Source: Picocystis sp. L7 (Eukaryota; Chlorophyta; Picocystophyceae; Picocystales; Picocystaceae). Taken from it: a stretch of 64,000 nt of DNA. Under the pieces are notes generated by a model. That model was not told where the DNA came from and did not search any database. It saw nothing but the letters and a program-made list of their open reading frames with translations. The stretch lies in NCBI GenBank assembly GCA_020975725.1, contig QXJR01000017.1, positions 187,001 to 251,000 on the forward strand. Reading direction: 5' to 3'. The position numbers were made by a program, and so were the translations under genes. This document shows positions 1-45,395 of this stretch, one piece after another. Positions within the stretch are counted from its first letter, which is position 1. Each line of letters starts with the position of its first letter.

Positions 1-1397
1 GACAAGGGGACGAAGACAAGGGGACCATGCACGCTGATTTTGGCAACTGGAGTGAAAGTTTGATCCGTCGAATGACGAGTCCACAAGAAGATATCGAGTG
101 GGATCCTCGTTCGCCAAGCGATTCGTCTGCTGCTCTGGATGACAGTGCCAGTAGCGATGGAGATAGCTCCGACAGTGACATAGACATTGAAGACCTGGCA
201 GGGAAGATGCCTAGAGGGAAGAGAGAAAAAGGAACCAGCACAACCAATGTGCACCAAGAAAAACCGGAAATGGTCCATCCAGTAATGAGGCAAAAGCTGA
301 CCAAGCAGGGCTACAAGATCATCGGGACACACAGTGGTGTGAAGCTTTGCCGGTGGACGAAGGCGATGCTGCGAGGCAGGGGAGGGTGCTATAAACACAC
401 CTTCTACGGCATCGAATCGCACAGGTGCATGGAAGCTACACCAAGTTTGGCATGTGCCAACAAGTGTGTCTTCTGCTGGCGCCATCATACCAATCCAGTG
501 GGTAAAGAATGGAAGTGGCAAATGGACGATGCTGACATGATTGTCGGCCAAGCGGTATCTGAGCATGTTAAGATGATCAAACAAATGAAAGGGGTTCCTG
601 GAGTACAGAAAGCACGCCTGCAGGAAGGCATGCAGCCCAAGCACTGTGCATTGTCTTTGGTAGGAGAGCCAATCATGTATCCACAGATCAGCAAATTGGT
701 GGAGGAACTTCACAAGCAGAGAATCAGCACGTTTCTCGTCACCAATGCTCAGTTCCCGGAGGCGGTCAGAAACCTTGCTCCAGTGACACAGCTCTATGTG
801 AGCATCGATGCAGCTACAAGAGACACTCTGAAGGCTGTAGACCGCCCACTTTTTAAGGACTTCTGGGAAAGGTTCTTGGAGTGCTTGCGTTTGCTGAACG
901 TGAAGAAGCAGAGAACCGTGTACCGACTTACTCTTATCGCAGGATGGAACATGGAAGATGTCAAAAATTACGCGAGCTTGATTGATGTTGGGAAGCCAGA
1001 TTTTATAGAAATAAAAGGAGTGACATTCTGTGGAGACAGTGGTGCGAATTCTTTGACCATGAAGAATGTCCCATATCACAAGGATGTGTGTGAGTACTCC
1101 AGGGCTATCTGTGACCTGCGTGATCAGGAGTACGAATTGGCATGTGCGCATGAACATTCCTGCTGTGTGCTTTTGGCTCGCAAAGACAAATTCTATCGCA
1201 ACGGCCAGTGGAACACGTGGATAGATTACGACAAGTTTCAGGATTTGGTGGCCAGTGGCAAAGAATTCGACAGTACTGATTACATGCTGCCCACCCCTTC
1301 TTGGGCCGTGTACGGTGCACAAGAAGCTGGATTTGACCCACAGGAAACGCGATTTAGAAAGGTACGGAGACACAAGCATTCTGAAGCAAAGTTGTAA
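1..1397 (+). CDS. TYW1: TYW1, tRNA 4-demethylwyosine synthase (C-terminal part)
   Basis: Radical-SAM enzyme that makes the tricyclic imidazo-purine core of wybutosine next to the anticodon of tRNA-Phe. The frame is open from the first bases of the window, so the gene begins outside it. The N-terminal flavodoxin domain expected in eukaryotic TYW1 would lie upstream. Seen here: an acidic Ser/Asp-rich linker (about residues 25-60 counted from the first ATG at 27), then the radical-SAM core with the CX3CX2C cluster motif (ACANKCVFCW, Cys 143, 147 and 150). Further motifs are SLVGEPIMYP, LVTNAQFPE, YVSIDAA, and a C-terminal wybutosine domain ending near PTPSWAVYGA. No intron is visible in this part. 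The gene is convergent with the next one, with about 140 bp between their stops. Family assignment is firm; the true start is unseen. Confidence 0.95.
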   Translation, partial: QGDEDKGTMHADFGNWSESLIRRMTSPQEDIEWDPRSPSDSSAALDDSASSDGDSSDSDIDIEDLAGKMPRGKREKGTSTTNVHQEKPEMVHPVMRQKLTKQGYKIIGTHSGVKLCRWTKAMLRGRGGCYKHTFYGIESHRCMEATPSLACANKCVFCWRHHTNPVGKEWKWQMDDADMIVGQAVSEHVKMIKQMKGVPGVQKARLQEGMQPKHCALSLVGEPIMYPQISKLVEELHKQRISTFLVTNAQFPEAVRNLAPVTQLYVSIDAATRDTLKAVDRPLFKDFWERFLECLRLLNVKKQRTVYRLTLIAGWNMEDVKNYASLIDVGKPDFIEIKGVTFCGDSGANSLTMKNVPYHKDVCEYSRAICDLRDQEYELACAHEHSCCVLLARKDKFYRNGQWNTWIDYDKFQDLVASGKEFDSTDYMLPTPSWAVYGAQEAGFDPQETRFRKVRRHKHSEAKL

Positions 1398-2526: not shown

Positions 2527-5422
2527 TGTAGTTTGATTTGGCTCGACAGGGTTTCACCTCGGGCCTTTGGAATGAGCCTGTCCTTTTCTTTTCTTTGTTG
2601 AGGGTCGAAACGTTTTTTTCTTCGTCTTTCCGTCCTACGTTCTGGAGGGTCTTTCCCTACCTCGATTTCTTGCCTCGCGATATGCAAGGTCGTACGATTT
2701 CTTTCGCGGATCTGGTGTATGTTCTCGCGTTTTCTTCGGACCTGTTTTTCGGTCTGACTTGCGTGCTTCGCTTCGTTCTTCGTCACCCGTTGTTCTTGAA
2801 CGTGTACTGTTCGTTTCCCAAGTGGCTTGTCTCGACCACTTCCGGATGCGTCCACCCGGTTTCGATCCTGATCTTAGCCTTGTTTTTTTCTTTCCTGGTG
2901 TCTCGACGTGAAGGCCGCGTCGTGTGCCTCCTGTCCTTGGAACGTGGATCGCGAGGTGCACAGTTCACGCACGTTTTTGTGTGTGTGTGTTTTGGGGTCT
3001 TTGTATTCTCCTTTTGCCTGTTGCACCGGTCGTCTCTGACCCACCTCGGTTGTGTCTGGACTGGATCCCAGAGTGGTGGCAGTCGTGTGGACGAGCGCGA
3101 GGTGAGGTTGGACGCACGGGGTGCCCACCAATGGAAGGGTGGGGGACAAGCAGAAGGGGGAGTGGCAGGGCCGCAGATCGACAGATGCAGCCTTTGGCAC
3201 CAAGCCCATCGGACCCACCCTCCGCCCCACCATGCGACCCTGTCCCGTCCCACCTTCCGAGAGACAGGGACAGGGACAAAGGGGGGGATGGTAGGGGACT
3301 CCCCGGAAGCGACTGAAAAATGACCCCACCGAGGGCTGAAAGTCGACCCCCCCTGGTTTCACACCCCATTCGGAAGATACACCCGGGTTCGAATGGGGGG
3401 GGAGTTTGTTAACCACAGGGACCACCCCCAAGGCCAAGGCAACGAAAGAGGGTGGAAGGAGACGAACCTTCCACGCCCACTCGGATACTTTGGATCGATG
3501 GGCGATGGAATGGGATTGTACCTCGAGACACGACTCTCCACCCCACGAGGCACCTCACTCGGTACATACCTTGCCATTTTCACATTGCTTGCGTGGCCTA
3601 AAGGACAATCCCACATGGTCCATGATTTGGTATGCCAATGTAGGATGAGTTGGAAGGTGATGCAACGGCTGGTGTGCAAATCCAAATCTTCTTCCCTTCC
3701 CTCCAGCGAGGAAAAGCGTACCATGCACGACAAGCTCCCGTGGCCCGTGCTTCTCCCCATCCTTCTTCCGCTTCCGGATCGAAGGATCTCCGGTCTTCCA
3801 ACTTTTCCCCACCCGATGCGAGATTTGAAAAGAAAAACGAGGTTCGTCTCCTTCCACCCTCTTTCGTTGCCTTGGCCTTGGGGGTGGTCCCTGCGGTTAA
3901 CAAACGTCGCCCCCTCTTTTCGAACCCGGGTGTATCTTCCGAATGGGGTGTGAAACCAGGGGGGGTCGACTTTCAGCCCTCGGTGGGGTCATTTTTCAGT
4001 CGCTTCCGGGGACTCCCCCCCCCCGACCCACACGGGGACGGACGACCCTGCCCGGGAAACGCACGAACGCGAACGTGTGCCGACGAGGATGGGGCGCACC
4101 CCGCGGCCTCCCCACCCCCACCCCGGGGGGGCCTGCCCAATGTCCACCCAAGCCTCCCCCATCCCACGTAGGAAGGAAAACCCATGGGTGTCCTTCGGCA
4201 CGGACCCAACAAGGGGGATCCGAATGGGACCCAGTACACGATGGACATGGAAGTAAAGACGGACGAACGGACAAGGAACGACGAAACGGGCCCACCAAAA
4301 GGCACGAATCATGGGAAATCCGAGACGAACCAACCAAGACATCGAGGTCGCACCGTTCCACGGAAACCCCGTGGAAACACAAACAACCTAGCCGACGCTT
4401 ACACCAGCAAACGATTCGTGGTGCAAGGGATGCAATCACACGAGTGCACAGTTCGATGGACGTATGCCTCGAGTGCAACCCGATTTAAACTGTTTTTCTT
4501 TTTCCCAATCCTCATATGCGAGGCGTGGATCCCTACCCTTTGGTTCGTTCGAGCGATCGCCCGCGATCCACGAGACGGACGAGCACGTGCCCCTTTTCTC
4601 ATGGAAACGGTGGTTGGAACGGACGCCCCGGACCTCCCGGATGGACGTGGAGCATGAGATGCGCGCGAAACGTCGCCAGCGTGAAAAGTTTGCGCGTAAA
4701 AACCCAAACACAACAAAGGGGTGGAACGTGATCGTACGATTGGAAGGGACAACGGGAATATGGGTCGTGCAAACGGAAAGCGAAAAGGGTTGGATGAAGA
4801 CGATGCGGCGGGTTGGGATCTTTCGGTCCTCATCGCCATGCATGGATCGAATGTTGTCTTGCATTGGTCGTTGCCCGATGGGTTGCGGTAGGGTAGACCC
4901 ACCGTCCCTCGCGTCCCGTTTCTCCCGCGAGGTTTGGTATCCATCCCTGGTTACCACGCACCTCTACCCCTTCGATTTTTCGCGTTCGGATGCCCGTGTC
5001 GTTCGCTTTTTCTTTGGATTCGCCACGGACTGGTACCCGTCTCTTCGTGTGGAACCTCTACGAGACGGATCCAGGTCCGTTCCTTCCCCGGCTCCCTTCG
5101 GTTCCCGTCCCCCTTCCGATCCGGGTGAGTGGGATGATTCCCGGGTTCCTTGGATCGGGTCACCGAGGATGGTCCCCTTTCGTATCGGGGATTCGATCCG
5201 GTTCGTCCCCATGGAGAAAGGGTGGGGGACCAGGAAGGGTCCGTATCCAACACGACAAGCGAACCGAGGTTTTTTCGGATCTTCGCATCACCACCACGTG
5301 CGCACTTCCGACGTCGACGTGAACGCACCACGCGCGGATCTCGAAACCACGTGCTCTTGCCATCCTCGAGGGTGGACCAGGATCGACACGCTCACGTGGA
5401 AACACGCGGAAGAAGACGACCG
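2527..5422. other. Divergent intergenic region, GC-rich, no gene recognised
   Basis: Holds the promoters of the membrane protein gene (leftward) and the TOM22-like gene (rightward). The first ~450 bases are T-rich on the plus strand with a short GT run near 2980. From about 3060 the sequence is GC-rich with G and C runs. Open frames up to 351 codons occur (for example 4464-5519), but they have low-complexity Arg/Pro/Ser-rich composition and no recognisable domain, so I treat them as chance. The far right end may hold an upstream exon of the TOM22-like gene. The inverted repeat at 3294-4018 is the main structure. Confidence 0.6.
3294..4018. repeat. Large inverted repeat, arms about 175 bp, spacer about 370 bp
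   Basis: The left arm 3294-3468 reappears in reverse complement at 3841-4018 with only a few differences. The plus-strand translation near 3830-3953 and the minus-strand translation near 3359-3480 therefore give almost the same peptide (for example RFVSFHPLSLPWPWGWSL on both). The spacer 3469-3840 is unique. No transposase and no clear flanking target duplication is visible, because the outer ends run into G/C tracts. It could be a foldback or MITE-like element, or a locally inverted duplication of promoter sequence lying between two divergent genes. Confidence 0.85.
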
Positions 5423-10998: not shown

Positions 10999-13262
10999 GG
11001 TGGATCGAGCGGTGGTGAAGCGAAAGCAGTTGCACGTGTTGTGAAATGCGGCGCGTCTTCCACTCCAAACCCCACAAATGTGGACATGCGGCTCAGAACC
11101 CTCCCGGTTGGATCCCCTCCCCCACCCCATCCCCCCATCGCGGTGGAAAAGGGATGGAACCTACCGATCCAGTGCCCCCCCTTCCTTTTGTTTCTTCGGG
11201 GTAGATGGGGGCGAGATGGGATCGAATGGGAACAGTTCGGGGTTCGATCGACCACCACACCGATCCTCGATACCACCTCCCCCCACCCCCCACGAAACCA
11301 CCCGGGTCGAAACGGAGGAGGATCCCAGCCATCAGGACGACATCCGGATGAAGGGAAGCCACCCACCACCACACATGGACGCACACGCACGCATACACAC
11401 AAAGGGAAGGGAGAGGCTTGGACCGAACCTGGCCGAACGAAACAGGGGGCCGAGGTGTGCCTGCGGATGGAAATAGGAACGTGATGGAAGGAGCCCAGGC
11501 CACACATGGAGGAGGGAGACGGGCACGCTGGAAACAGACACAAGAGAACCCGTGGCACGAAACCACATCACCCGTCCAAACCCGATGGAACGGCCCAGCC
11601 ATCAGGATGGCACAGAACGGACCAAGCGTTTCCACCTCCCGTTCTCCTGTCCCATCCCGAACCCCCATCCGTACTGCCCTCCTGGCTTGCCAACTGTCCT
11701 GCCATGTACGTGGCACGGGAGAGGGGGGGCATTCATTGGTGCGAAGGAAGGGGAATGGAGCCCTTGGACGAGGTGAGAAACGGAGCCGCCGGGGTGGTGA
11801 GATACCCGCCCCGACGAACGAGATTGTGTGGTGGGGAAAGGACCGCCCCAGATGGCGGCCCTCCGAGAACACCCCTGGTGAAAGAAACGGATGGACGGAA
11901 AAGGACGAACCGAAACCGTGCCACAGCGTGGGACCGGCCTCCCCAACGGGGCGGGATGGATAAGGGCTCCACGGGATTGTGGCTACTCGAGAAAAAGACT
12001 TCAGCGGTCGACCGAAAAAACAACCCGCAGGCATCATTTGGCGACGAGGACGGCTCCTGCCTCGACGGCGATTGACCGGATAGCCGAAAACAACCCGAAG
12101 CAAAGCCCTGCTAGAATCGCCACGTGCGAGCACCTGACGCAGAGGTTGCAGCGGCCGAAGCCGAGTTTGAAGTTGCAGAATGGCATCGGTCGTGCCGCCA
12201 ACCAAGCTGCTCTCAACGCTACCAGCACCGTCTCTCTTCCCGCCTCTCCCCCCAAAAAAATGCCGCGTGGGCATCAGACAAGAAACTCGCCAACAATCCA
12301 CCTTCTCGTTTGACGCGGAACTAATCTTGCGCTAGCGCGTGCCAAAACAATTCAACGTGTGCACATGATGGGGGGAAAGATGCAAGCGCGCAAACGTCGA
12401 CTCCCTCCGAGCGCAAATCTTAAGATGCGCGTAAGCTTGGGATTCCAACGCTGATGTTCCGTCCGTCTCACACAGAGGCTTGACCAAACGCAAATGCCAA
12501 ACACCCAATCTTGCGCGGACGATTGATCGAAAGCAGAGCAGCTTACTTGAAACATGGAAAATGCTGCATTCCAAGAGGAAAGTATAGGACGTAATTTTGT
12601 TGAATGCAAGCCACGGCACGGTTGGAACTTACGTTGGCCTTTGCAATGCAATGTACTCCTTCGGTTTTACCTTTGATCGAGATTGCGATCGTTCTCGGCG
12701 ACTTGTCGTGAATTTTTATCACATAGGTCCATCAAATCCGAGCCATTTCGATTTGTGTGGAATCTAACTCCACGAACAGCCGAGGATTCCTCCTAGAACA
12801 CGAAGGCTGCCCCCTCAATAGTCCGGTTTTCTTTCGTGATTGCAGTTGGATCCGACACAATAATTGAACGCTCGAGGGTTTCGTTTATTTCCCCTCGTTC
12901 CTTTGTTTTTACGAGGAAAGATACCTCGGCGCGACATTGTGGATGATTCTTCCTTGGTATCACCACTTTTTTCTAATTGGTTGACACTCTTCGGATTGCG
13001 AATAATAATCGACTCGCCAATCGTGGCAAGCACCAAACGATTGCCCCATGGCGAGCTAACTTGAAGAATGGAATCTTTGCTTGATCTTTTGCGTTGGGAA
13101 GAACTCCAGTGATCTTGCGTCGATTCCTACCTCTTTGTACGAATAGATTGTGAGTTGCATCACAAATTGGCACGTCATCGGGCTCGCGGTGTTCGTTTAG
13201 CTCCGTTCGCAACGGTTGCGTGGATATATCTTCTTTGAGAACGTTTGTCCGAGTTCACGATC
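10999..13262. other. Aldolase upstream region up to the retrotransposon; no gene recognised
   Basis: From 11000 to about 12000 the sequence is GC-rich with C and G runs and (CA)n-like stretches near 11390; a promoter role for aldolase is likely. A 402-codon minus frame (11093-12301) and others are Arg/Pro/Ser-rich and look like chance frames in GC-rich DNA. At 12034-12255 (-) a 73-codon frame has a hydrophobic end (AILAGLCFGLFSAI); I cannot assign it. From about 12310 to 13262 the sequence is AT-richer and shows nothing recognisable. Confidence 0.5.
13259..13262. repeat. Target-site duplication GATC, left copy
   Basis: The four bases GATC directly before the left LTR are repeated directly after the right LTR. 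This marks the whole 13263-20889 element as one insertion into a GATC site. Confidence 0.75.
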
Positions 13263-13918
13263 TGTTACGCCGGGTAGGCCTGGCTCTCCTATGAAGCCAT
13301 GCCCCTAGAGTTCCAGGAGCAGTGGGGGGCAGGACCCCGACAATCGGCCGGTCAATCGAGTGAGCCCCGGACTAATCCCCGGGTTAGTCGGACGGAATAG
13401 TCCGAGCGAACCGGACTCAGACCGACCGACCCCCGGGCCAAATCCCCTCGAAGATTCGAGAAGGGGGTACGAAGGGTGGAGATGTTGTGTGGAAGATTCG
13501 GTCGGCTTAGGAACTGAATCTTGGCCGTCCGATGGATGACGTAAGCAACACGTGACCATCAGCCGCCGCAATTCAGTTGAGGGGGCTACGTACGAACCCC
13601 TCAACCTTCAAGGGGAGGCTCTTAAGGGGACCTCCCTAGCATGTAGTGGATGAGAACTTGCTTGACCCCACGACGTCCACGGCGCCTCTCCCACGGATTT
13701 TCGCGAGCCATCAGCACTTTCCGCGCCGGAGAAGCAGCGCTCCAAGTCTCTCCAAGTGCCGGAGGAGGCACCACCGAGCCAAGAAGGGGACGGACGCCGC
13801 TCTCGCCAACGAGAAGTGCGCCACCCCAAAGAAGAAGAAACCGCCTCCATTTCGTGAGGGGTCGAAGTTTCCAGGAGCAAACCGTGTGTCCAACGTCCTT
13901 CACGGACGCTTTGTAACA
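13263..13918 (+). repeat. Left LTR of the retrotransposon
   Basis: 656 bp, starting TGTTACGCCGGG and ending GCTTTGTAACA, with inverted TGTTAC/GTAACA termini. It is GC-rich in the middle, with purine-rich and proline-codon-like tracts that give chance frames on both strands. A 43-bp leader follows before the gag start. I could not match a tRNA primer site in it with confidence. Confidence 0.93.
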
Positions 13919-13961
13919 CTGTCGAAGCTTGAGCTTTTGAAAAACTTCTACTCGCCGAACT

Positions 13962-15224
13962 ATGGAGGAGAGCGACCATGCAACCCGCATGAGCACGCTT
14001 CGTAGGGAACTCGAACAAGAACGGGAGGAGAGGTCCTCCCTTGAGACGAAGATTGCTGAGCTCCAGCAACTCATTGAGAAGCTCCAAGCTCACAAAGTTG
14101 AAGAAAGTGAGGAAGAAGAAGAGATGGTGGTTGAAGACGGCCCCGAGGGTGTACACCTCGCGGAGCCAAAGGAGCCGAGCCTACAAGAAGTCACACCATC
14201 AGAGCAAGAAGGTTTACCTCATCTCATCAGCCTCTATGGCATGGCTTTACAAGATTCCAAGAATATCTCAAAGGTGTCCCTCGAGAAACCGGACAAGTTT
14301 ACCGGTACGGAACTTGAGGACAACCCCTATGCCCTTACATATTGGTATAGGGATGTCCTTTGTTGGTGCCAAGCATATGCCTTTAACCGCCCGATGGAAC
14401 AACTTGTGTTAGCCATTAATCAAGCACTCGGCGGTACGGCAAAATCCATGGTTCAAAACCTCATTATGAGAGACCCGGCAGCCCTTAACTCCGTCGAAGA
14501 CTTGTATGGTTACCTCCGTAAAACCTTCCAAAATCAAGACCCAGGACCGGAGGCTTGGCGGGAGTTCCACACCGCCCGTATGAAGCGGACAGAAAATGTG
14601 CTGCAGTTCCTCAACAGGTTGGTGCAACTGAGCTTTGTAGTTAATGCAAGCTCCTCACCTGTGTGCCGGACTCTCACGGAACATGACATCTCGGCCCGTT
14701 TGCAACATGGCCTCCCAGGCTACTTGCAAAGAGCTTTATACAAGCACCTGGATCATCTAATTGATGTGGACAAAGCTCCTGACATGGAGCCTGGAAACCT
14801 TGCTGCCATTATCTTTAAACTGGAACGGGAAGTACATGAATCAGCAAGGAAAGACTCAAGACAGCCAGCGGACAACTGGAAATTGCAGAGCAAAGGAGTC
14901 CGTAACACCGGTACCATCCATGGCTTTCCAAATCGATCCAGCATAGCCACAGCGGCAGCGTTACCGTCATCGCATCCAGGTAACTCAAGGGTGAATGGGC
15001 CAGCCAAGCGACAGCGAAAGCGCTTCGATGAATTGGATGAAGAACAGCAGAGTTCGATCGTGAAGGTGCAGACTAGGCTGGCCAACAAGCCCCTAGGTGC
15101 AAAACTTACTCAAGAAGAAAAGGATCTCTGCCTGGCGAACGCGCTGTGCCTACGCTGTCGCCGTTACGGACATGATCAGGCAGCCTGCAAAATGGCATCC
15201 GTAATGGGTGCCCCAAAAAACTGA
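13962..15224 (+). CDS. gag: Retrotransposon Gag (capsid/nucleocapsid) frame
   Basis: 420-residue frame that starts 44 bases after the left LTR. A coiled-coil, acidic N-terminus (residues 5-55; LEQEREERSSLETKIAELQQ) is followed by a retrotransposon capsid-like region (about 105-250; DKFTGTELEDNPYALTYWY and VLQFLNRLVQLSF). A basic stretch comes next, then a CX2CX4HX4C zinc knuckle near the end (CLRCRRYGHDQAAC). This is the usual Gag layout for Ty3/gypsy elements. Confidence 0.88.
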   Translation: MEESDHATRMSTLRRELEQEREERSSLETKIAELQQLIEKLQAHKVEESEEEEEMVVEDGPEGVHLAEPKEPSLQEVTPSEQEGLPHLISLYGMALQDSKNISKVSLEKPDKFTGTELEDNPYALTYWYRDVLCWCQAYAFNRPMEQLVLAINQALGGTAKSMVQNLIMRDPAALNSVEDLYGYLRKTFQNQDPGPEAWREFHTARMKRTENVLQFLNRLVQLSFVVNASSSPVCRTLTEHDISARLQHGLPGYLQRALYKHLDHLIDVDKAPDMEPGNLAAIIFKLEREVHESARKDSRQPADNWKLQSKGVRNTGTIHGFPNRSSIATAAALPSSHPGNSRVNGPAKRQRKRFDELDEEQQSSIVKVQTRLANKPLGAKLTQEEKDLCLANALCLRCRRYGHDQAACKMASVMGAPKN

Positions 15225-15439
15225 ATACCCTCCGTCCGGTAACTACGGTTACCGGGACGGAGCCGGGAGCGAAACCTGCAGCCACCCCGGTTACCAAAGA
15301 TAGGAATGTAGTCTGCCTGCACTCACTTACCAATGACAGGCCTAGACATGAATTCCTGGCTGCCGAGACTTACTTTGGAAAGAAGCCACATAAAATCAGA
15401 ACACAAGCTTACCTGGACACCTTAGCAAGTTACTGCTTC

Positions 15440-18400
15440 ATGAGCGAACGCCTCTTCAAAGAGCTGCAGCAAGCTGACCCTAAGGGACTGTCCTGGCAGT
15501 ATACATCAGCGGCCTTTAATTATAGCGTGGCTGTGGGCCAGCAGGTCCACACTGCCCCAGTAATTAAAGCGCAATTCTCGATCGATGGGTTCCAGGCCTG
15601 CATCGACTTCGGAGTTGCTCCTCTGGAGACCTTTGACTGCATTCTGGGAGCAACCTTCTGCCACAAGCACTTGACAGCACTGGACTGGCAGAATCATCGC
15701 ATGGTACTACGAAGTAGCAATGGTACAAAGTTTACTGTCTATGGGGACCACCAGTTTATATCTTCAAGAAAACTGGACCTGATTGTGCCCCGAAGTGAGG
15801 CACGTAAAGCGGTGAAGGATCCAGGCTGCCTGCTTCTAATGATTCAGCCGGTAGATACAACGCCCGAACTACTCAGTGAAGATTCAGACTTCAGCAGCAT
15901 GCATAGTCAGGTCAGCGATGAATGGCCTCTTGATGACGCTCACCGACAGCGGCTGGACGACCTTGTGAACAAACAGTACAAGCATTTATTCGAGCCCCGC
16001 ACAGAACTACCTCCGGAACGGGTACCGGGCGAAACTTTCAAGATCCAGGTGGAAGAAGGAGCCACTCCACAGTACAGAAACTATTACAGGCTTTCCCCTC
16101 AGCAACAAACTGCCCTCAAGGAGCTGGTGACTGAGTATGTTGAAGCTGGAAAGATGGACCTATGCGCAGGATCCAGCTGGGGTGCCCCAGTGATCCTGGT
16201 CCCCAAAAAAGATGGGGGATGGCGGGTCGTTTTCGATTATCGCCTGCTGAACAATGTGACTATTAAAGACAGATATCCGCTTCCACGGATCGACGATTAC
16301 TTACAGAATCTTAGAGGAGCCAAGTACTTCTCATCGCTCGATGCGCTGGATGGGTTTCATCAGATCCGCATGCATCCGGATGACATCGACAAGACAGCGG
16401 TGGTCACCCCGTTTGGCTCTTACGTCTGGAAAGTAATGCCCATGGGGGCAGCAAACGCACCCGCGATGTTCCAGCGTATGATGAACAGGGTGTTTGGTCA
16501 TTTATTATACCTGAAAGTGTACATGGATGACATTCTTGTTCACTCTGAAACAGTTGAGGAACACTTCAAACATTTGGAAGAATTCTTCGCCACCTGCGAA
16601 CGTGCCGACATTAGGCTGAAGAGGTCTAAATGCCACTTTTTCATGAGTACACTGGAATGGATTGGTTTCCGCATCCGCGATGGTCAGCTCGCCTGCACTG
16701 ATCATTTGCTGTCCAAGATCAAACAGTTTCCGCGTCCCCGAACGCAGCGAGAAAACATGGCATTCCTTGGTCTCTGCCAGTTTTATATGAGGTTCGTCCC
16801 TCGCTATGCGGAACGGGCAGCTCCCTTGACAGAATTGAATCAAGCTGCTCTGAAGCACGGCTTCGCTTCATATTGGAAAGAGCCACAGGAGAAGGCATAC
16901 CATGAGCTCATCAAAGCCTTGACCACAGCCCCGGTATTGGCTCTATTTGATGAAGACAGGCCCATACGGGTCGAGACCGACGCTTCCGATGTGGGGATGG
17001 GAGCAGCTTTGATGCAGCAGGATCAACAGGGAGGTTGGCATCCGGTTGAGTTCTGGTCAAAGAAATTCAATGCTGCCCAACAGAATTACCATCCTGCTGA
17101 GAAGGAGACATGTGCAATATTATATGCACTGCAGCATTGGAGGCACCTCCTGTTTGGCCAGCAGTTCACGGTCATCACTGACAACAAGGCCAGTCAGTTT
17201 ATTGGAACAAAAACTACTGAGCAGCTATCTCCGCGCGAAATGCGATGGATCGAAAAGTTGGCGTACTTCGCCCCGTTCAAGGTGGAGTACAGGCCGGGCA
17301 CAGAGAACGTTGGACCCGATTACCTTTCCAGGCACTCAGCTAAGGTGAACGATACGGACACATATTGCATCTTGGACTTATGTGCAGGTATGGGAACAAC
17401 GCTGCGTGCGCTGGAATGCGTAATACCAGAATCGACCAATATTACCTTGGATTACATAGCAGTGGAACAAAATGAAGACTGCCGCAGCGTAATTGCACGC
17501 GTGTTCCACCAGGTTCGCTTAGCACGCCCTGGGCTCTTTATGCGCAAGGACATCTTTCGGTATGGAAACGATGTGACTGAATTGGCGCATCGACGAAAGC
17601 TCCCCCAAGTCCACCTGCTGATTGCTGGGGTGCCCTGCCAACCATTTTCGCGGGCGAACACCGACCCGTCAAAGCCACCGCTGGGCCTTTACGACGAACG
17701 TGAACTGTTCACAGCAGTGTCAAAGATACACAAGCGGTTGCGGTCGCCAGACTACATATTGGAATGTACGCCGTTTGCCCCGCACTTGAAAACCCACCTG
17801 GACAAGATTGCACACTGGTTTGGAGAACCCACCTGCGAAGATCTCTCAAAGTACTGTGCGCAAGCTCGAGTCCGGCTGTGCTGGACATCATTACCTCCGC
17901 TTAAACAGGATCCTGGAGAAATGGGGACAATACCTATGACCTGGCAGGATTGCCTAGATGAAGGATCGAAGGTACCTACGGACGCATTGAACCGACCCCG
18001 CTTGAAGTGCCCCACTCTGATGGCCAGTGAACGATCGCACAGTGACCGTTCGCGTTCCACCTGGGTGCACAGTCAAGATGGGACCCTACGCCCGTTGACC
18101 ATCAGCGAGCGGGAAAGACTCGTCGGTATGCAGGTTGGTGACACTGCAGCGCTCAACGTCAGCGAAACCAGCCGGCAACGCATGTGCGGCAGCGCCTTCC
18201 CCATGGGTTGGATTGCACACATGTTACACCGATGGCTAAACAACACACGGACGCTTCGACTGCTAGCCGGCCGCAGTCCTGCTGGGACTGTGTGCGGGTC
18301 AATCGCGTCTATTACAAGTCAACAATCTACGCAATCGTTGCGCACAGGTCTTACGGGTCGGTTGCCTCCCATACTGGACAGGATTCGCGTCGCCGCTGAA

Positions 18401-20206
18401 ACAGATCCAGAGTACAAGAAATTACTGCGCGCACCGCCGGAAGGCACGACAGTGCGCGATGGTTTGCTGTTCGAGCAATCGGCCAATGCTCAACCAGCAC
18501 TGGTGGTACCAGCAGATAACGCTCTACGACAGGAACTGCTACACATGGTGCACGATCATCGACACTTTGGGTCAGCCCGTACACTCGCTGACGCCAAGCG
18601 ACATTTCACCTGGACTGGTATTCGATCGCACATCGAGCACTTTGTCGCTCGCTGTCCTGCCTGTCAGCTTCAGAAACCAGGTAACCGGTTACGACACACA
18701 CCGCTCTGTCCAGAAATGAAGTTCCACCCTTACCCTTTTCACACGGTGGTACTAGATATGGTGGAGAACTTACCCCTTACTGCCCTGGGTCATAATGCAG
18801 TATTGACAGTGGTGGACAGGTTTACTAAATACGCCATCTATATACCTATCCACTCTACCTGGAGTGCTCATAGACAAGCTCAGTGTCTTATGGACAGCCT
18901 CGTCTACCGGTTCCATACACCTGTGCATATTCACACAGATAACGGACCGGCTTATCGAGCATTATTCCGAGCATTCTGTGCCGCGCTGGGTGTCCGCCAC
19001 GTAACCGGAACGCCGTACCATTCACAGTCTCAGGGTGGTGCAGAACGGCAACATCGCACCCTGCTGCAGACGTTACGGACGACGTGCGAGAACAAACATC
19101 AATGGGATCAGTATTTACAGGCAGCAGCACATGCTTACAATGATTCTGTGCATGATGCAACCAAACATTCCCCTTTTGAATTGCTCTTTGGCTGTCAATC
19201 AAGGCTACCGTGGCACCTCCAGTTGCCCACAAAGGATGGACCTGCTGATCACCTGACAGTAACAACCTTCGATAAAAGAGTAACAGACCTGCTGGAGCAA
19301 CATCGCGCAGTCTATCGGGTTGTACAGGAAAACTTGGTGAAGGCTTCGCAGAATGTTGCGGCAGCAACAGCGCACAGACCTAAGAAGGTGTTTGCTGTTG
19401 GAGACAAGGTGAAGGTGCAGTATGGGCTCAAGGGGCCCACCGATAAGCACAAATTGGACCCTTACTTTGTAGGTCCTTATCTCATCAAGAAGGTGCTGAA
19501 GAATGGTGCATATCAACTGGAACTACCACCGGGCTCTGCCTTTTCAGATCGTATCCACGCCAACAGGTTGGAACATTGGGTGGATTCAGATCTCACTCTT
19601 TTCCCAATGGATGAACATCGGCAGCCCGCAACGGCACCCTTGCCTGATACTGCAGCCATGCAAAGTGAATCAACTACCTATCGTATTCGACGATACTTGT
19701 TACGGGATTACTCAGTGTTTCCTGCACGCCCCGTACGTTACTGGATAGAGAGTAACCTGGCTGACGCGTCGCAACGCTATTTCTGGGTGGATGAGTCCTC
19801 TACCCTGCTGGAAGAATTCCTACCTCTCGAGGAGAACAATGGCTGTATCCCTGAAAAGGGCATCAGCCCCTCGAATTATGACGCAGTCAAGACGCACAAG
19901 AGGACAGTTTACCTACAGTCACCTGACCCAATCATGATCAATACTTGGACGCAAGCGAAGCTACCGTACCAGACTAGACGACGACCTATTGTTGCTGTGC
20001 CCACCAACCTCATTGGCTGTGTGGTGCAAGAACTTTTCCATTTGGGCAACCACAAATCTGCATACTACCAAGGATTGGTGACCAACGTCCTTAATGGGTT
20101 GTTTGAAGTGTTATGGACAGATGGAAAGGTAGAGCATTACACAGAGCAGAAAGTAAGGAGCATGGTGTATGATCCAGTGGCAGCCATCTACGACTTTCAG
20201 CTTTGA
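15440..20206 (+). CDS. pol: Retrotransposon Pol: protease, RT, RNase H, DNA methyltransferase, integrase
   Basis: 1,588 residues from the first ATG; the open frame begins somewhat earlier and includes the protease start. Domains by position: protease-like about 15390-15780; reverse transcriptase about 16040-16700 with YMDDILVHS at 16519; RNase H about 16970-17330 (ETDASDVGMGAAL). Next is a C5-cytosine DNA methyltransferase-like domain about 17365-18240, with motif I LDLCAGMGTTLRALE, motif IV GVPCQPFSRAN, an Arg-rich QARVRLCW (motif VIII-like) and a closing SRQRMCGSAFPMGWI resembling the last motif of DNMT3. Integrase follows: zinc-binding region 18540-18690 (CPACQLQKPGN) and catalytic core about 18720-19180 (HTDNGPAY). 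The C-terminal part has a Tudor/SH3-barrel-like stretch near 20040-20150 (YYQGLVTNVLNGLFEVLWTD). Confidence 0.92.
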   Translation: MSERLFKELQQADPKGLSWQYTSAAFNYSVAVGQQVHTAPVIKAQFSIDGFQACIDFGVAPLETFDCILGATFCHKHLTALDWQNHRMVLRSSNGTKFTVYGDHQFISSRKLDLIVPRSEARKAVKDPGCLLLMIQPVDTTPELLSEDSDFSSMHSQVSDEWPLDDAHRQRLDDLVNKQYKHLFEPRTELPPERVPGETFKIQVEEGATPQYRNYYRLSPQQQTALKELVTEYVEAGKMDLCAGSSWGAPVILVPKKDGGWRVVFDYRLLNNVTIKDRYPLPRIDDYLQNLRGAKYFSSLDALDGFHQIRMHPDDIDKTAVVTPFGSYVWKVMPMGAANAPAMFQRMMNRVFGHLLYLKVYMDDILVHSETVEEHFKHLEEFFATCERADIRLKRSKCHFFMSTLEWIGFRIRDGQLACTDHLLSKIKQFPRPRTQRENMAFLGLCQFYMRFVPRYAERAAPLTELNQAALKHGFASYWKEPQEKAYHELIKALTTAPVLALFDEDRPIRVETDASDVGMGAALMQQDQQGGWHPVEFWSKKFNAAQQNYHPAEKETCAILYALQHWRHLLFGQQFTVITDNKASQFIGTKTTEQLSPREMRWIEKLAYFAPFKVEYRPGTENVGPDYLSRHSAKVNDTDTYCILDLCAGMGTTLRALECVIPESTNITLDYIAVEQNEDCRSVIARVFHQVRLARPGLFMRKDIFRYGNDVTELAHRRKLPQVHLLIAGVPCQPFSRANTDPSKPPLGLYDERELFTAVSKIHKRLRSPDYILECTPFAPHLKTHLDKIAHWFGEPTCEDLSKYCAQARVRLCWTSLPPLKQDPGEMGTIPMTWQDCLDEGSKVPTDALNRPRLKCPTLMASERSHSDRSRSTWVHSQDGTLRPLTISERERLVGMQVGDTAALNVSETSRQRMCGSAFPMGWIAHMLHRWLNNTRTLRLLAGRSPAGTVCGSIASITSQQSTQSLRTGLTGRLPPILDRIRVAAETDPEYKKLLRAPPEGTTVRDGLLFEQSANAQPALVVPADNALRQELLHMVHDHRHFGSARTLADAKRHFTWTGIRSHIEHFVARCPACQLQKPGNRLRHTPLCPEMKFHPYPFHTVVLDMVENLPLTALGHNAVLTVVDRFTKYAIYIPIHSTWSAHRQAQCLMDSLVYRFHTPVHIHTDNGPAYRALFRAFCAALGVRHVTGTPYHSQSQGGAERQHRTLLQTLRTTCENKHQWDQYLQAAAHAYNDSVHDATKHSPFELLFGCQSRLPWHLQLPTKDGPADHLTVTTFDKRVTDLLEQHRAVYRVVQENLVKASQNVAAATAHRPKKVFAVGDKVKVQYGLKGPTDKHKLDPYFVGPYLIKKVLKNGAYQLELPPGSAFSDRIHANRLEHWVDSDLTLFPMDEHRQPATAPLPDTAAMQSESTTYRIRRYLLRDYSVFPARPVRYWIESNLADASQRYFWVDESSTLLEEFLPLEENNGCIPEKGISPSNYDAVKTHKRTVYLQSPDPIMINTWTQAKLPYQTRRRPIVAVPTNLIGCVVQELFHLGNHKSAYYQGLVTNVLNGLFEVLWTDGKVEHYTEQKVRSMVYDPVAAIYDFQL

Positions 20207-20233
20207 TTGGCTGAATGCCGGGAGCCAGGAGAG

Positions 20234-20889
20234 TGTTACGCCGGGTAGGCCTGGCTCTCCTATGAAGCCATGCCCCTAGAGTTCCAGGAGCAGTGGGGGG
20301 CAGGACCCCGACAATCGGCCGGTCAATCGAGTGAGCCCCGGACTAATCCCCGGGTTAGTCGGACGGAATAGTCCGAGCGAACCGGACTCAGACCGACCGA
20401 CCCCCGGGCCAAATCCCCTCGAAGATTCGAGAAGGGGGTACGAAGGGTGGAGATGTTGTGTGGAAGATTCGGTCGGCTTAGGAACTGAATCTTGGCCGTC
20501 CGATGGATGACGTAAGCAACACGTGACCATCAGCCGCCGCAATTCAGTTGAGGGGGCTACGTACGAACCCCTCAACCTTCAAGGGGAGGCTCTTAAGGGG
20601 ACCTCCCTAGCATGTAGTGGATGAGAACTTGCTTGACCCCACGACGTCCACGGCGCCTCTCCCACGGATTTTCGCGAGCCATCAGCACTTTCCGCGCCGG
20701 AGAAGCAGCGCTCCAAGTCTCTCCAAGTGCCGGAGGAGGCACCACCGAGCCAAGAAGGGGACGGACGCCGCTCTCGCCAACGAGAAGTGCGTCACCCCAA
20801 AGAAGAAGAAACCGCCTCCATTTCGTGAGGGGTCGAAGTTTCCAGGAGCAAACCGTGTGTCCAACGTCCTTCACGGACGCTTTGTAACA
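20234..20889 (+). repeat. Right LTR of the retrotransposon
   Basis: 656 bp, nearly identical to the left LTR. It is preceded by a purine-rich stretch ending GGGAGCCAGGAGAG, a fair candidate for the polypurine tract, 27 bases after the pol stop. Confidence 0.93.
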
Positions 20890-20893
20890 GATC
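20890..20893. repeat. Target-site duplication GATC, right copy
   Basis: Matches the four bases before the left LTR. A fifth base does not match, so the duplication is four bases. Confidence 0.75.
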
Positions 20894-23343: not shown

Positions 23344-25201
23344 ATGGCCAACGAAGAAGACGCCACGCTCTATCCCATTGCGGTGCTCATCGATGAATTG
23401 AAGAACGAGGATGTTGGGTTGAGGCTCAAGTCCATCCGTAGGCTCTCCACCATCGCTCTTGCCCTCGGAGAAGAAAGAACCAGGAACGAACTCCTGCCGT
23501 TCCTTGCGGACAACGTGGACGACGAAGATGAAATCTTGCTTGCCATGGCTGAAGAGCTTGGACGATTCGTCCCGTACGTGGGTGGGAAAGATCACGCCAA
23601 ATGCCTCCTCGGACCTTTGGAAAGCCTTTGCACCGTAGAAGAAACGGTCGTGAGAGACAAAGCGGTCGAGTCCATCTCACACATCTGCACCCAACTGAGA
23701 AATGAAGACATCGTCAATCACGGAGTGCCAGCAGTGAGGGTAAGCCGCGAATGCGCCATTTCGAAGACGAAGAACAGAACCGAAACGTGCGCAAGCGCGC
23801 CAATGCTGACTCTGATCTACATCGTCGTTGCAGAGGCTCGCTTCAGGGGAATGGTTCACCGCTAGGGTTTCTGCCTGTGGGTTGTTTCACGCCGTTTACG
23901 AAGCTACTCCCGAAACCACACGTCAAGAACTTCGGGAACTTTTCACGCAAATGTGTCATGACGAGACCCCAATGGTCCGAAGGGCAGCAGCACAGAACCT
24001 GGGACGTTTCTCGACCGTGGTAGAATCAGAGTTTCATAACCCGACCATGTTGCAACTGATACTGGACCTGACTGCAGATGAGCAAGATTCGGTTAGGTTG
24101 CTCGCGGTGGAGAATTGTGCGCAGTTTGCAAAGTGCCTCAGCCCGAAGGACTGTACTGAGCACATTCTCCCCATCGCACTCAAATTTGCGCAGGACAAGT
24201 CGTGGAGGGTGAGGTATATGGTAGCAGCACAGATGGGAGCATTGTGTGAGGGGTTAAGCCCTGACGTATCCCAAGTAAAGCTCCTATCAGCTTTTGCAAA
24301 CCTTTTGCAAGACAGCGAGGCAGAAGTTCGCATTTCAGCAGTAGGCCGAATTGTGGAAGTGTGCAAGGTGATTAAGGACGACAGTGCTCTAATGGACACA
24401 GTTTCCATGGTTCAGAAGCTAGGAGTAGACAGTTCTCAGCACGTTCGTGCCGCTCTTGCATCTGTGGTTATGGGATTGTCATCTATACTTGGAAAGGAGA
24501 AAACACACAAGCACTTGCTCCCTCTTTTCCTGGCCCTGTTGAAAGACGAGTATCCAGAAGTCAGGTTGAACATCATCAGCACACTAGACGCAGTCAACCA
24601 GGTGATTGGCAATGAGACGCTCTCGGACTCCCTGCTCCCAGCAATCAAAGAGCTTGCCAGTGATAAACATTGGCGTGTGCGTCTTGCAATCATTCAGTAC
24701 ATTCCCTTGCTAGCCAGTAATCTTGGAGTCGAGTTTTTCGACAACGAGCTAGGTTTGTTGTGCTTGGAGTGGTTGGGGGATCAGGTTGCTGCGATCAGAG
24801 AAGCCGCCGCCAAAAATCTGAAGCACCTGGCGCAAGAGTTTGGCAATGAATGGGCATGCCAGTACATTTTACCGAGGGTACTTGAAAGGATAACCACCCC
24901 ACATTATCTCTTTCGTATCAATGTACTCTTCACAATTTCACTCTTGGCACCTGTCATGGGCAACGAGGCACTCTGCAACTTCATGTTACCTGTTGTTGTC
25001 AATGCATCGAAGGATAAAGTACCTAACATTAAGTTTAACGTAGCTAAGGTCATGCAACAGATTATACCCTTGGTGGATGGGGTGGTGATTGAAAGCACGA
25101 TCCGCCCGTGTCTCCTCTGCCTGCAGGACGACCACGACACGGATGTCCGTTTTTTTGCAGCCCAGGCGCTTCAGGCATGTGATTGTGTGGCCTGTGTGTG
25201 A
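23344..25201 (+). CDS. PP2AA: Protein phosphatase 2A scaffold subunit A (PR65)
   Basis: Scaffold of heterotrimeric PP2A, holding the catalytic C and a regulatory B subunit. Exon 1 is 23344-23739 (132 codons) and exon 2 is 23834-25201, phase 0, with a 94-bp intron (GTAAGC to TTGCAG; GCTGAC branch-like motif 29 bases before the acceptor). The product is 587 residues, against about 589 in animals and plants. It is built of HEAT repeats throughout. Diagnostic stretches are [18 protein letters not shown] at the N-terminus, [15 protein letters not shown] just after the junction, [29 protein letters not shown] and [37 protein letters not shown] and [14 protein letters not shown] complete the C-terminal repeats. 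Exon 1 is visibly richer in G+C than exon 2. Confidence 0.97.
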
Positions 25202-25918
25202 GCCAGAAGCACTGCACAAGTTTGTGTAGCCAGAAACTGTACATAGGGGCGTGAGCTAGTAGGTATGCTTCTAAATTTTCTTTGTTCGTCCTCGCAGCTC
25301 ACTGGTTGGGAGCACTTGTTAAATATGCGTGTCAACTGCGCACATGTTCCTCTGCATGATTTTGCTATCATGGCGTTTCCCAGGAGGTAGAGTGAGCGGC
25401 AGTGTCCCCGTGCTCCGTTGCAAGGGATGGAAGCCCATCCTTTTGAGAGCGTCACACGGTCGATGGTGGATTCCCATGCATGGGATGAGCCTCGGCCTTG
25501 GCATGCGATCGCTGCATCTCTTGCATTGCCTCCTTGGTCTGGAAGCCGCCTTTTTCATGCGAATGGATCGTCCTGTGCTTTGCCTTGTAGGTGTTTCGTT
25601 CCCTCTTTGGTTCCCCATCCATCTTCGTTCCCTTTTCCACACCCTTTGGGGGCCATGCCTCCTTCCTTCCCCCAGAAGAGGAGGGGTGGGGAGGTGGGTT
25701 CTCCGAGGAAGGCAGGGGATCGGTCCATCCACTCCCCCATCTTTCCTGTTCGATCTGAACCGAATCTTCGACACGTGGAGTCCATCTTGGTTCGACGAAG
25801 GAACCCGACACCAGGACCAGAGTGGGACACGTCCTCCCTACGAACACCGCGCCGACACGTGCACGTCCGTCGCAACCAGCAGGAAGAGATCCGATCCTCA
25901 CCCGAACGTCGTCCTCGG
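25202..25918. other. Intergenic region: PP2A 3' flank and promoter of the multifunctional protein
   Basis: 717 bp between two plus-strand genes. The first ~180 bases are AT-richer 3' flank; the rest is GC-rich with pyrimidine-rich runs on the plus strand, the composition seen before other starts here. The downstream frame stays open back to 25418, but without domain content before 25919. Confidence 0.5.
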
Positions 25919-28141
25919 ATGGACGTACAGGTACACGTCCAAGATTCGGGGGTGGCGGTGGTCACCTTGATCCATCCACCCGTCAATGCACTCCATCCCA
26001 CACTGCTGGACCTGCTCTTCCGAAAACTAAGACATATCAACGCCAATGAAGAGGTGCGAGCCGTCGTGCTCCGAGGAAAAGGAGGGACCTTCTCCGCAGG
26101 ATTCGACGTGTCCAACTTCCAAACGGAAGAAAACCAGGAAAAAGGACGTGGAAAAGGTCCACCCGTCGATGCTGGTAACGTGCAAAAACACATCGAAGCT
26201 GCACTGGAAAACGGAAGGGTGCCCGTTGTGGCGCTAGTCGCAGGAATGGCGCTCGGTGGTGGACTGGAACTGGCCATGGCCTGTGCAGCAAGAGTAGCCG
26301 TACGAGGAGCCAAGCTGGGATTGCCAGAACTGCAATTGGGTATCATACCTGGCTTTGGTGGAACGCAGAGAATGCCCAGGCTCGCTGGGCTTGATACCGC
26401 CATCCAAGCCATGCTCACCTCGAAACCTCTCACCTGCAAGCAGTCCCTGCGCGTCGGATTGGTGGACGAGGTGTGTGAAGACGAGGAACAGGCCCTTCGA
26501 ATGGCCGAAAAACTAGCGCTCCAGATTGCCAATGGAAAGGCAGCTCGATGCTCCGCGCTGTACAGGAACGATCGCCTTCCCCCGCTGTCCGAGGCCCTGA
26601 AAAAGGTGGATGCGGCAAGAAACATACCCGGTGCACGGATGCCACATGCCCAACTATGCCTTGATGCCATCGAAGCTGGACTCCTGCATGGCGCCAGGGA
26701 GGGCCTGAAGGAAGAATCCCTGGCCTTCTCCAAGGCTCGCGCACTGCCGGTGCACCACGCCCTCGTGCACTTTTTCTTTGCTCAACGCAACACAAAGAAA
26801 CTGACCTTGATGGCCGACGAGCCGAAATCAACCGTGCAGCAATACCGCCCCAAGAACATCAAAGTGGTTGCGGTTATTGGGGGAGGATTGATGGGCGCGG
26901 GGATTGCCACCGCGCTTGTCGTGTCAGGCATGAAGGTGCTCCTAAAGGAAGTCAACGATCAGGCCCTCGAGGCAGGCATCAAGAGAGTTCATGCCAATGT
27001 TGAGTCTTTGGCGAAGAAAGCCTCCAAAGAGGGCAATGCCGGGGCTTCTTTCGAGGCCGCGAAAAAAAGCGTCGTGGGTGTGAAGGATTATGAGATGTTC
27101 AAAGAATGTGACATGGTTATTGAAGCAGTCATCGAAAATCTCCCGCTCAAACAGGCCATCTTTGCAGATTTTGAAAAAGCGTGCAGGCAGGATTGCATCC
27201 TGGCAACGAACACATCAACGATCGACTTACAGCTCATTGGGAAAAAATGCAGTGCAACCACCAGGAAGAGAATTCTTGGAGCTCACTTCTTCTCGCCGGC
27301 GCAAATCATGAAGCTGCTCGAAATTGTGAAAACAAACGAAACCGATGGGCAGTACGTGCAAGACACAATTGCTCTGTCCACAAAGATCAAGAAAGTACCT
27401 ATTGTCGTCGGGAACTGTACAGGGTTCGCTGTCAATCGTGTGTTCTTCCCATACACCATGGCCGCTTGCTTGCTTGTGGATGTAGGTCTAGATCCTTACG
27501 CTGTGGACAAAGCCATCGCTAATTTTGGAATGCCTATGGGTCCTTTTCGATTGGCAGATCTGGTGGGCATCGATATTGGACTGCATGTGGGGAAAAACTT
27601 TGTCGACTCTTTCCCTGAAAGAGTGTATTTGTCTACCTTGCTTCAACATATGCACGCATCCGGCAGGCTGGGAGAAAAATCTGGTGGAGGCTTCTATAAG
27701 TACGATCCAAAGACGTCTTCTAGAAAGGCAGTTCCTGACGAAGCAGGCGTGAGCAGGATATTGTCGAGCTCAAGGAAGGATTCTGAGGTAGCTGAGCAGA
27801 CAACGAAAGGTGTGAGACTCTCACCAGAGCGTATCGTGGAAATAATATTCTTCCCCATAGTGAACGAAGCATGCAGGGTCATTTCGGAAGGAATTGTGGA
27901 TAAGCCTGGAGATCTTGATGCGGCATCAGTACTTGCAATGGGTTTTCCGCCGTATCGTGGTGGTCTTATCTGGTGGGCCGACCACGAGAAAGGGAGCAAG
28001 TACGTACATAAACGGCTTGAGGAACTCGCCAGCGAATTTCCTTCGCAGAGCGGATTCTTCAAACCCTGCGAATACCTACATGCTTGCGCAAGCAAGGGTA
28101 GAGATATTGGAAGGGGACTGCACCTTTCCCCCAAGCTCTGA
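25919..28141 (+). CDS. MFP2: Peroxisomal multifunctional protein: enoyl-CoA hydratase / 3-hydroxyacyl-CoA dehydrogenase
   Basis: Carries out the second and third steps of peroxisomal fatty-acid beta-oxidation: hydration of 2-enoyl-CoA, then NAD-dependent oxidation. From ATG 25919 it encodes 740 residues; plant AIM1/MFP2 proteins are of similar size. The N-terminal crotonase domain (1-200) has RGKGGTFSAGFDVSNF, the oxyanion-hole stretch GMALGGGLELAMAC, and PELQLGIIPGFGGTQRMPRL with the catalytic Glu. The NAD-binding domain starts near residue 310 with VVAVIGGGLMGAGIATAL. Then come ILGAHFFSPAQIMKLLEIV and GNCTGFAVNRVFFPY, and the C-terminal dehydrogenase repeat with GFPPYRGGLIWW. It ends in Pro-Lys-Leu, a minor form of the PTS1 peroxisome signal. 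No intron seen. It faces the peroxisomal NAD carrier across an AT-rich gap. Confidence 0.95.
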   Translation: MDVQVHVQDSGVAVVTLIHPPVNALHPTLLDLLFRKLRHINANEEVRAVVLRGKGGTFSAGFDVSNFQTEENQEKGRGKGPPVDAGNVQKHIEAALENGRVPVVALVAGMALGGGLELAMACAARVAVRGAKLGLPELQLGIIPGFGGTQRMPRLAGLDTAIQAMLTSKPLTCKQSLRVGLVDEVCEDEEQALRMAEKLALQIANGKAARCSALYRNDRLPPLSEALKKVDAARNIPGARMPHAQLCLDAIEAGLLHGAREGLKEESLAFSKARALPVHHALVHFFFAQRNTKKLTLMADEPKSTVQQYRPKNIKVVAVIGGGLMGAGIATALVVSGMKVLLKEVNDQALEAGIKRVHANVESLAKKASKEGNAGASFEAAKKSVVGVKDYEMFKECDMVIEAVIENLPLKQAIFADFEKACRQDCILATNTSTIDLQLIGKKCSATTRKRILGAHFFSPAQIMKLLEIVKTNETDGQYVQDTIALSTKIKKVPIVVGNCTGFAVNRVFFPYTMAACLLVDVGLDPYAVDKAIANFGMPMGPFRLADLVGIDIGLHVGKNFVDSFPERVYLSTLLQHMHASGRLGEKSGGGFYKYDPKTSSRKAVPDEAGVSRILSSSRKDSEVAEQTTKGVRLSPERIVEIIFFPIVNEACRVISEGIVDKPGDLDAASVLAMGFPPYRGGLIWWADHEKGSKYVHKRLEELASEFPSQSGFFKPCEYLHACASKGRDIGRGLHLSPKL

Positions 28142-44705: not shown

Positions 44706-45395
44706 GATGGATGCGGTTGGTGTGTGCCCAAGACACGACCAGGCACGACTGGGAGGGATGGCGGCGCTCCACCCTTGTCTCCCTCGAAGCCCCCCCCCCA
44801 AACCTCACAACTGTCAACCCGGGACCCCCGACTTCACGACCGGCAACGCACCCGCTCCCACTTCACAACTCTCAACCCGGGACCCCCCGAACCTCGGCGC
44901 GAGCAACGTGAAGGGGAGACCTCCCGGGTCGCAGGGGAGGATCCTTCCTGTCCTCCCACCCTCCCCCTTATCAACGGACGGGGTCGAGGATCCTTGGAAC
45001 CAGGGTGCGTCTTGGGTTCGAACCCGAGGTGAAAGGGAGCGTGTGGGGGGTATAGGAAGGTCGTCCGACCGCCCCTGTCTCGTCCCCTTCGGCTGCCACC
45101 ACGGTCTTTTTCCTTCGGAGGAGGGGTCGTCCATTCGGTCTTCGCATGGGTCCTTCCCCCACCCATCCACGGGGGAACAGGGTGGAAAGGATCGAATGGA
45201 CCGTCCATGGACCTCCCCCGACGGGAACCCCTTCCCATTCCCCTTTCGAAAGGAGAAGAAACCAAGGGAGATAGAACGAAGGACGCGGGTGGGTCCCGGT
45301 GGGAGTGGACATCCAGGATCGGACAGGAAAGGTGCAAACCTGGTGACCACCGCACGTCCACGAAGTCGAAGGAGAAAAACGAACACGAAAGCGAC
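44706..45395. other. Divergent promoter region between RPL10 and beta-COP
   Basis: 690 bp, GC-rich with runs of C near 44790 and a pair of direct repeats at 44805-44887. The chance frames across it carry no domain. A tRNA-like GGTTCGAACCC near 45015 lacks the rest of a tRNA. Confidence 0.5.
44805..44887. repeat. Direct repeat pair, 25 bp each, in the divergent promoter
   Basis: TCACAACTGTCAACCCGGGA at 44805 recurs at 44863 with one difference, each copy followed by a C run. The copies start 58 bases apart. They may be paired binding sites or a small local duplication. Confidence 0.6.

Follow-up and report, generated by a model that had tools for sequence, protein, structure and literature searches.

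A DNA Methyltransferase Domain Inside a Ty3/gypsy Pol

Why would a retrotransposon itself carry an enzyme that lays down cytosine methylation, the tag that cells use for silencing transposons, when transposons normally evade this modification? The question is raised by a 64,000-nucleotide stretch of DNA from the alga Picocystis sp. L7 (hereafter the window), in which a complete long terminal repeat (LTR) retrotransposon of 7627 bp lies at positions 13263-20889. The original prediction, made from the letters of the window, had placed a cytosine DNA methyltransferase (DNMT) between the RNase H and the integrase of this element's Pol, which is the domain order found with Pfam: reverse transcriptase (RT), RNase H, C5 methylase and integrase. 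RT, RNase H and integrase follow one another as in a Ty3/gypsy Pol, with the protease placed by a by-eye reading of a D-T-L-A site alone (the usual motif is D-T/S-G, and Pfam gave no protease match in Pol). Among solved structures, the closest to both the RT and the integrase are those of Saccharomyces Ty3, an element not known to have a DNMT. The two LTRs differ at one of 656 positions, in agreement with the near-identical LTRs that had been noticed. The window element is a young, complete Ty3/gypsy retrotransposon and is probably autonomous.

We found all of the C5 methyltransferase motifs I, IV (PCQ), VI (E), VIII (QxRxR) and IX/X in the element DNMT, with motif I, PCQ and QARVR of the original prediction inside the domain, and the catalytic C, E, R and R are invariant in alignments of the element DNMTs. 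In the proposed check against the Pfam DNA_methylase family, PF00145 scored above its cut-off, with positions 48-106 of the 324-position profile matched; the outer limits of the domain were set from relatives, the profile and the model. DNMT3A/3B are closest both in sequence profile and in predicted fold (Foldseek, best 1000 PDB chains), and DNMT2 scored far lower in the profile search. Judged by its motifs, profile and predicted fold, the domain is a functional-looking DNMT3-like cytosine-5 methyltransferase.

The DNMT domain is under purifying selection. Between the window copy and copy L024, the ratio of nonsynonymous to synonymous divergence (dN/dS) is 0.10 for the DNMT (dS 0.50), 0.05 for the integrase and 0.01 for the RT, and for the DNMT it ranges from 0.05 to 0.11 over the six computable between-family pairs, with dS saturated in one pair; for the RT and the integrase, dS is saturated in most wider pairs. 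Within families, the values are 0.10-0.32, from few differences.

Copies in the Genome and Host Methylases

The family count called for in the original prediction was made in the source genome (20.5 Mb, 30 contigs), where at least 121 matches to the window DNMT and at least 121 to PF00145 were found. When the two match lists were combined and matches within 1.3 kb were merged, these gave at least 157 distinct DNMT loci. Four of them look like host genes, namely a DNMT1, a chromodomain DNMT that we take for a chromomethylase because of its chromodomain, a DNMT2-like gene recognised by eye, and an unclassified gene (L040) for which no PDB match was obtained; the other 153 are counted as DNMT matches, whether or not an element surrounds each of them. 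No host DNMT3-type gene was recognised among the PF00145 matches listed, although one split by introns could escape. By hand count, at least 53 of the 121 listed DNMT matches lie in open frames of at least 1660 aa and are stop-free within the match. In the best 108 of 228 RT candidates, the DNMT lies directly downstream of the RT at 103 loci, whereas five have none there. Among 21 copies studied in full, 18 have an LTR pair (identity 97.8-100%, with 100% in four full-length pairs); both ends were recognised in 13 copies, eight of which are flanked by an exact target duplication of 4-5 bp and five by none.

Two contigs, C3 and C4, which together make up 2.4 Mb of the 20.5 Mb, hold 66 of the 157 listed DNMT loci, many of which contain stops or have short frames; none of the 18 light-harvesting complex (LHC) matches falls on these contigs. 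They are possibly element-rich outlier chromosomes.

Relatives and Origin of the Domain

With the DNMT part of Pol as the query, 22 homologous proteins were listed, with identities from 94% down to 26%; PF00145 was found in 20 of them, and no Klebsormidium-labelled entry was among the protein matches listed. A tree built from 35 DNMTs places the 15 from elements in a clade of their own (99/98), separate from the host DNMT1, chromomethylase, DNMT2-like and unclassified genes and adjoining phage and viral methylases plus DNMT3A (group support 88/98). The references of this tree are thin, with one partial DNMT3A on a long branch and no Klebsormidium or Symbiodinium sequence. The phylogeny that had been proposed sets the element DNMTs apart from the host genes, and the DNMT3-like class, upheld by profile and predicted fold, is less clear in its placement, which depends on that one partial DNMT3A. 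As for the donor, the tree lends no support to the DNMT1, the chromomethylase or the DNMT2-like gene of the host. The phage DNMT3-like methylases Epa40, Perkons and BU2-2 lie on the DNMT3A branch adjoining the element clade and are stand-alone genes of phages; identity to the window DNMT is about 29% for Epa40 and Perkons, that of BU2-2 to the DNMT of copy L045 is 26%, and PHROG 116 matched the element DNMT with an E value of 8.5e-16.

A profile search for a stand-alone close relative, which scored the best 8000 candidates by common words, gave 14 matches at E values up to 1e-8: six of them have domains of the RT, RNase H or integrase type, and eight are pieces seen without their surroundings. 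Weak, partial matches to the DNMT were all that was found in viral contigs (17 loci) and, among those listed, in prokaryote genomes (at least four loci). Nine of the 14 matches bear the label Pavlova_lutheri, and the EukProt entry P0004 with that label is identical at 330 of 330 residues to copy L055 of the source genome (C20:548788-549777), so that the EukProt dataset is mislabelled, contaminated or shares DNA with this alga.

One homologous protein, P0018, groups by its DNMT with copies L045 and L046 of the source genome; compared with the main clade, it has average identities of 0.38 in the RT, 0.30 in the integrase and 0.48 in the DNMT. Dividing the DNMT distance by the RT distance gives a ratio of 0.75 for P0018 (0.62-0.80, 20 pairs) compared to 1.75 within the clade (1.37-3.86, 175 pairs). 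Since the ratios fall likewise for RNase H (1.48 to 0.99) and integrase (1.66 to 1.32), and since the more distant P0020, P0021 and P0023 also have low DNMT ratios (0.95, 0.90 and 1.04) without any excess DNMT identity, this low ratio is partly due to saturation. Beyond saturation, P0018 still stands out as an apparent outlier in these distances. Because the reference sampling is thin, a single origin and an exchange of modules are what we infer. Tentatively, the domain could be an old methylase module specific to retroelements, which passes between Ty3/gypsy lineages always at the RNase H-integrase joint and is a standard Pol part in a widespread group; here, it would prevail in its RT lineage and might supply the principal de novo methylases of a host with DNMT1 and chromomethylase but no recognised DNMT3-type gene. 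We regard this as a real possibility that stops somewhat short of being probable. In the divergent Pol proteins P0021 and P0023, motif IV reads D-C-R instead of P-C-Q with the catalytic Cys retained, and their DNMT possibly has an altered activity or target.

Comparison with Known Elements

To our knowledge, few DNMT-bearing transposons have been published. The dinoflagellate and charophyte precedents named in the original prediction do exist: PMC5890265 describes dinoflagellate LINE and DIRS elements with a DNMT, as well as a Gypsy Pol of Klebsormidium that contains one. KnitGypsy-Dnmt3 of Klebsormidium nitens resembles the window element in having a DNMT3-class domain in a Gypsy Pol, a green host (a streptophyte) and purifying selection, whereas its repeats are DIRS-like in arrangement and the window element has direct LTRs of the ordinary type, flanked by target duplications; its copies are fewer than in Symbiodinium (PMC5890265). 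SymbioDIRS-Dnmt3 also has a DNMT3-class DNMT in Pol beside the RT and was active on CG in yeast, but it is a DIRS element with a tyrosine recombinase, a retroelement class unrelated to the window element (PMC5890265). SymbioLINE-Dnmt is likewise a DNMT-bearing retrotransposon, but a LINE with a DNMT of another lineage in ORF1, and it is CpG-depleted, which the window element is not (PMC5890265). Retrotransposon DNMT3s are mentioned in PMC12344493, which lists Copia and DIRS elements, and PMC6338049 refers in general terms to Gypsy and DIRS elements of green algae and charophytes that carry a methylase. PMC8226279 concerns animal DNMTs and networks. Among the papers listed in searches of an open-licence library, which omits most subscription papers, we found no report of a DNMT-bearing Gypsy element in another green alga.

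Gag-Pol Expression and the Possible Role of the Enzyme

At its end, the gag frame reads CCA AAA AAC TGA, in which A-AAA-AAC, a classical -1 frameshift site, abuts the stop codon. The stretch 15222-15290 folds with -33.9 kcal/mol (z -4.77), and none of 200 shuffles was equally stable. The heptamer was present in 18 of the 21 copies, one stretch being examined per copy, and was not found in L018, L032 and L036. As AAAAAAC by itself is no rarity here, with 24 occurrences in the window versus 15 expected, the evidence lies in the exact place, the phase and the conservation of the heptamer.

If Pol is made solely as a Gag-Pol fusion by frameshifting, then little DNMT would be packaged per particle, together with the RT and the integrase. 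The packaged enzyme could methylate newly made double-stranded cDNA or, during integration, the site of insertion, and a host DNMT1-type maintenance enzyme and the chromomethylase could maintain the mark, so that a new copy would be methylated from the start. Such a copy would do less damage to the host and would not appear as foreign unmethylated DNA, at the cost of low transcription. That the packaged Pol DNMT methylates the element's own DNA copies is our leading reading of the sequence, and we judge it evenly balanced. Two features favour it, the frameshift arrangement between Gag and Pol and a surplus of C/T differences in CG and CHG within the window family. Between seven of the eight closest copies (L021, cut by a contig end, was left out), C/T differences amount to 0.0120 per CG, 0.0108 per CHG and 0.0050 per CHH, and at third codon positions the CG value is about three times that of CHH.

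Several observations weigh against self-methylation. In the sister family (nine of ten copies, L032 being left out), the excess is small (CG 0.039, CHG 0.030, CHH 0.030), CG at third positions is 1.6-fold CHH for one strand and 1.2-fold for the other, and for one of the strands CG transitions are barely above transversions (1.1). The contexts are alike in 16 long LTR pairs, at 0.0022 each (27 differences). The observed-to-expected (o/e) CpG ratio is 0.81 in the element and 0.84 in the rest of the window, with no general depletion, and CpG depletion was therefore discarded as a proof of self-methylation. The copy pairs in the C/T comparison are not independent, and host methylases alone could cause the CG/CHG excess. 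The Klebsormidium Gypsy DNMT gave no activity in yeast, a result that its authors regard as inconclusive (PMC5890265). Finally, the Asn of the GN motif (18191-18193), which is kept in the other 19 of 21 copies, is Ser in L017 and in the window copy, despite the nearly identical LTRs of the latter.

Alternatively, the DNMT might methylate the cDNA in the particle as a shield against nucleases, deaminases or sensors of unmethylated DNA, the gain being survival before integration and not later silencing. This explanation, which we think unlikely but the best placed of the alternatives, shares the packaging logic of the slippery site and the hairpin and fits the dominance of DNMT-bearing copies at the RT loci. 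However, this dominance was counted within one RT lineage, and no such defence, for which no search was made, is known in the host. A shield of this kind has been proposed for SymbioDIRS in the discussion of PMC5890265.

The number of DNMT loci, their many stop-free long frames and the lack of a recognised DNMT3-type host gene among the matches listed would also suit an enzyme that, produced from many copies, acts in trans on host chromatin or rival elements and shifts the host methylome. Expression by frameshifting should, however, leave the enzyme scarce and particle-bound, a DNMT3 split by introns or lying outside the candidates scored could have been missed, and the host-type gene L040 is unclassified; we consider this action improbable. 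Equally improbable, in our view, is a role in which the domain binds genomic RNA or methylates it, or acts as a structural spacer or as a DNA-binding module for the integrase. In each of the 13 aligned genome copies, motif VI reads ECT or ECV and never ENV, which, like the Ser form in two copies, would fit such a role, but the invariant catalytic residues and the proximity to the DNA enzymes DNMT3A/3B rather than to DNMT2 argue against it. Lastly, an assembly chimera or a one-off insertion, the objection foreseen in the original prediction, is ruled out for practical purposes by the copy number, the LTR pairs, the exact target duplications and the PF00145 domains of homologous proteins elsewhere.

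Features of the Element and of the Window

The coordinates are collected in Table 1. The stretch that follows the 5' LTR lacks an initial TGG, and no primer was matched to it. Self-primed reverse transcription was rejected, as the 20 nt after the LTR have no complement of 8 nt or more in the LTR.

Table 1. Features of the retrotransposon and of neighbouring genes (window coordinates).
Feature	Position	Strand	Basis or remark
Target-site duplication GATC	13259-13262 (left), 20890-20893 (right)	.	Sequence; exact match by script
5' LTR (TG...CA)	13263-13918	+	655/656 identical to 3' LTR
Presumed primer-binding site CTGTCGAAGCT, directly after 5' LTR	13919-13929	+	Identical in 4 copies compared (3 families)
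ORF1 Gag, 420 aa	13962-15224	+	Weak Pfam gag matches under gathering scores
CCHC zinc knuckle, C-terminal in Gag	15147-15188	+	By-eye reading
Slippery heptamer A-AAA-AAC, gag frame, directly before gag stop (15222-15224)	15215-15221	+
Hairpin 3' of slippery site, presumed frameshift stimulator	15230-15262	+	Folding
pol frame, -1 relative to gag	15176-20206 stop-to-stop; first ATG 15440	+
Possible protease active site D-T-L-A	15416-15427	+	By-eye reading of translation
Reverse transcriptase (YMDD)	16199-16675	+	Pfam; Ty3 RT, E 1.3e-82
RNase H	16874-17269	+	Pfam
Cytosine-5 DNA methyltransferase domain, DNMT3-like	17345-18250	+	Pfam, relatives, profile, model
DNMT motif I	17375-17395	+
DNMT motif PCQ (IV)	17633-17641	+
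DNMT motif ECT (VI)	17762-17770	+
DNMT motif QARVR (VIII)	17861-17875	+
DNMT motif GSAFP	18188-18202	+
Integrase zinc-binding domain (H2C2)	18515-18679	+	Pfam
Integrase core rve; D, D, E present	18743-19024	+	Pfam; Ty3-G IN, E 4e-21
SH3-like C-terminal domain, Tf2-1-like	19430-19570	+	27.2 bits, slightly under Pfam cut-off of 30
Purine-rich tract GCCGGGAGCCAGGAGAG before 3' LTR	20217-20233	+	Sequence
3' LTR	20234-20889	+	LTR comparison
TYW1-like radical SAM	3-1394	+	Pfam
PP2A-A-like HEAT	23816-25198	+	Pfam
Enoyl-CoA hydratase/hydroxyacyl-CoA dehydrogenase	25391-28138	+	Pfam
Kinesin	34762-36456	-	Pfam
Threonyl-type tRNA synthetase	38885-40831	-	Pfam
Coatomer beta	45347-48460	+	Pfam

The host is photosynthetic, and the green lineage suggested for it fits its LHC and coatomer proteins, on account of which a red-alga host was rejected. 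One of the LHC matches in the genome retrieves chlorophyll a-b binding proteins in the PDB, entries which we take to be from green algae and plants. Among the 120 best records listed for coatomer beta, those with names are nearly all from green algae or land plants (62-67% identity), with unnamed proteins at 99% and 89% and one record with a dinoflagellate label (P0047). No phycobilisome match was found in the genome, which is weak evidence because such genes may be plastid-borne.

Elsewhere in the window, a single open frame of 3653 aa on the minus strand (52542-63500) is Tra1/TRRAP-like and has a CpG o/e of 0.49; the three lowest-CpG of sixteen 4-kb window blocks fall inside it, and gene-body methylation of this gene is possible. 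At 3294-3469 and 3840-4018 lies an inverted repeat (about 179 bp, 96% identity).

Conclusions

Given its compact genome, its numerous copies that are intact and recent, and the maintenance enzymes of the host, this alga would make it possible to test whether such an element methylates itself, when this would happen (in the particle, at integration or later) and what the benefit may be, and the frameshift arrangement predicts where the DNMT would be located.
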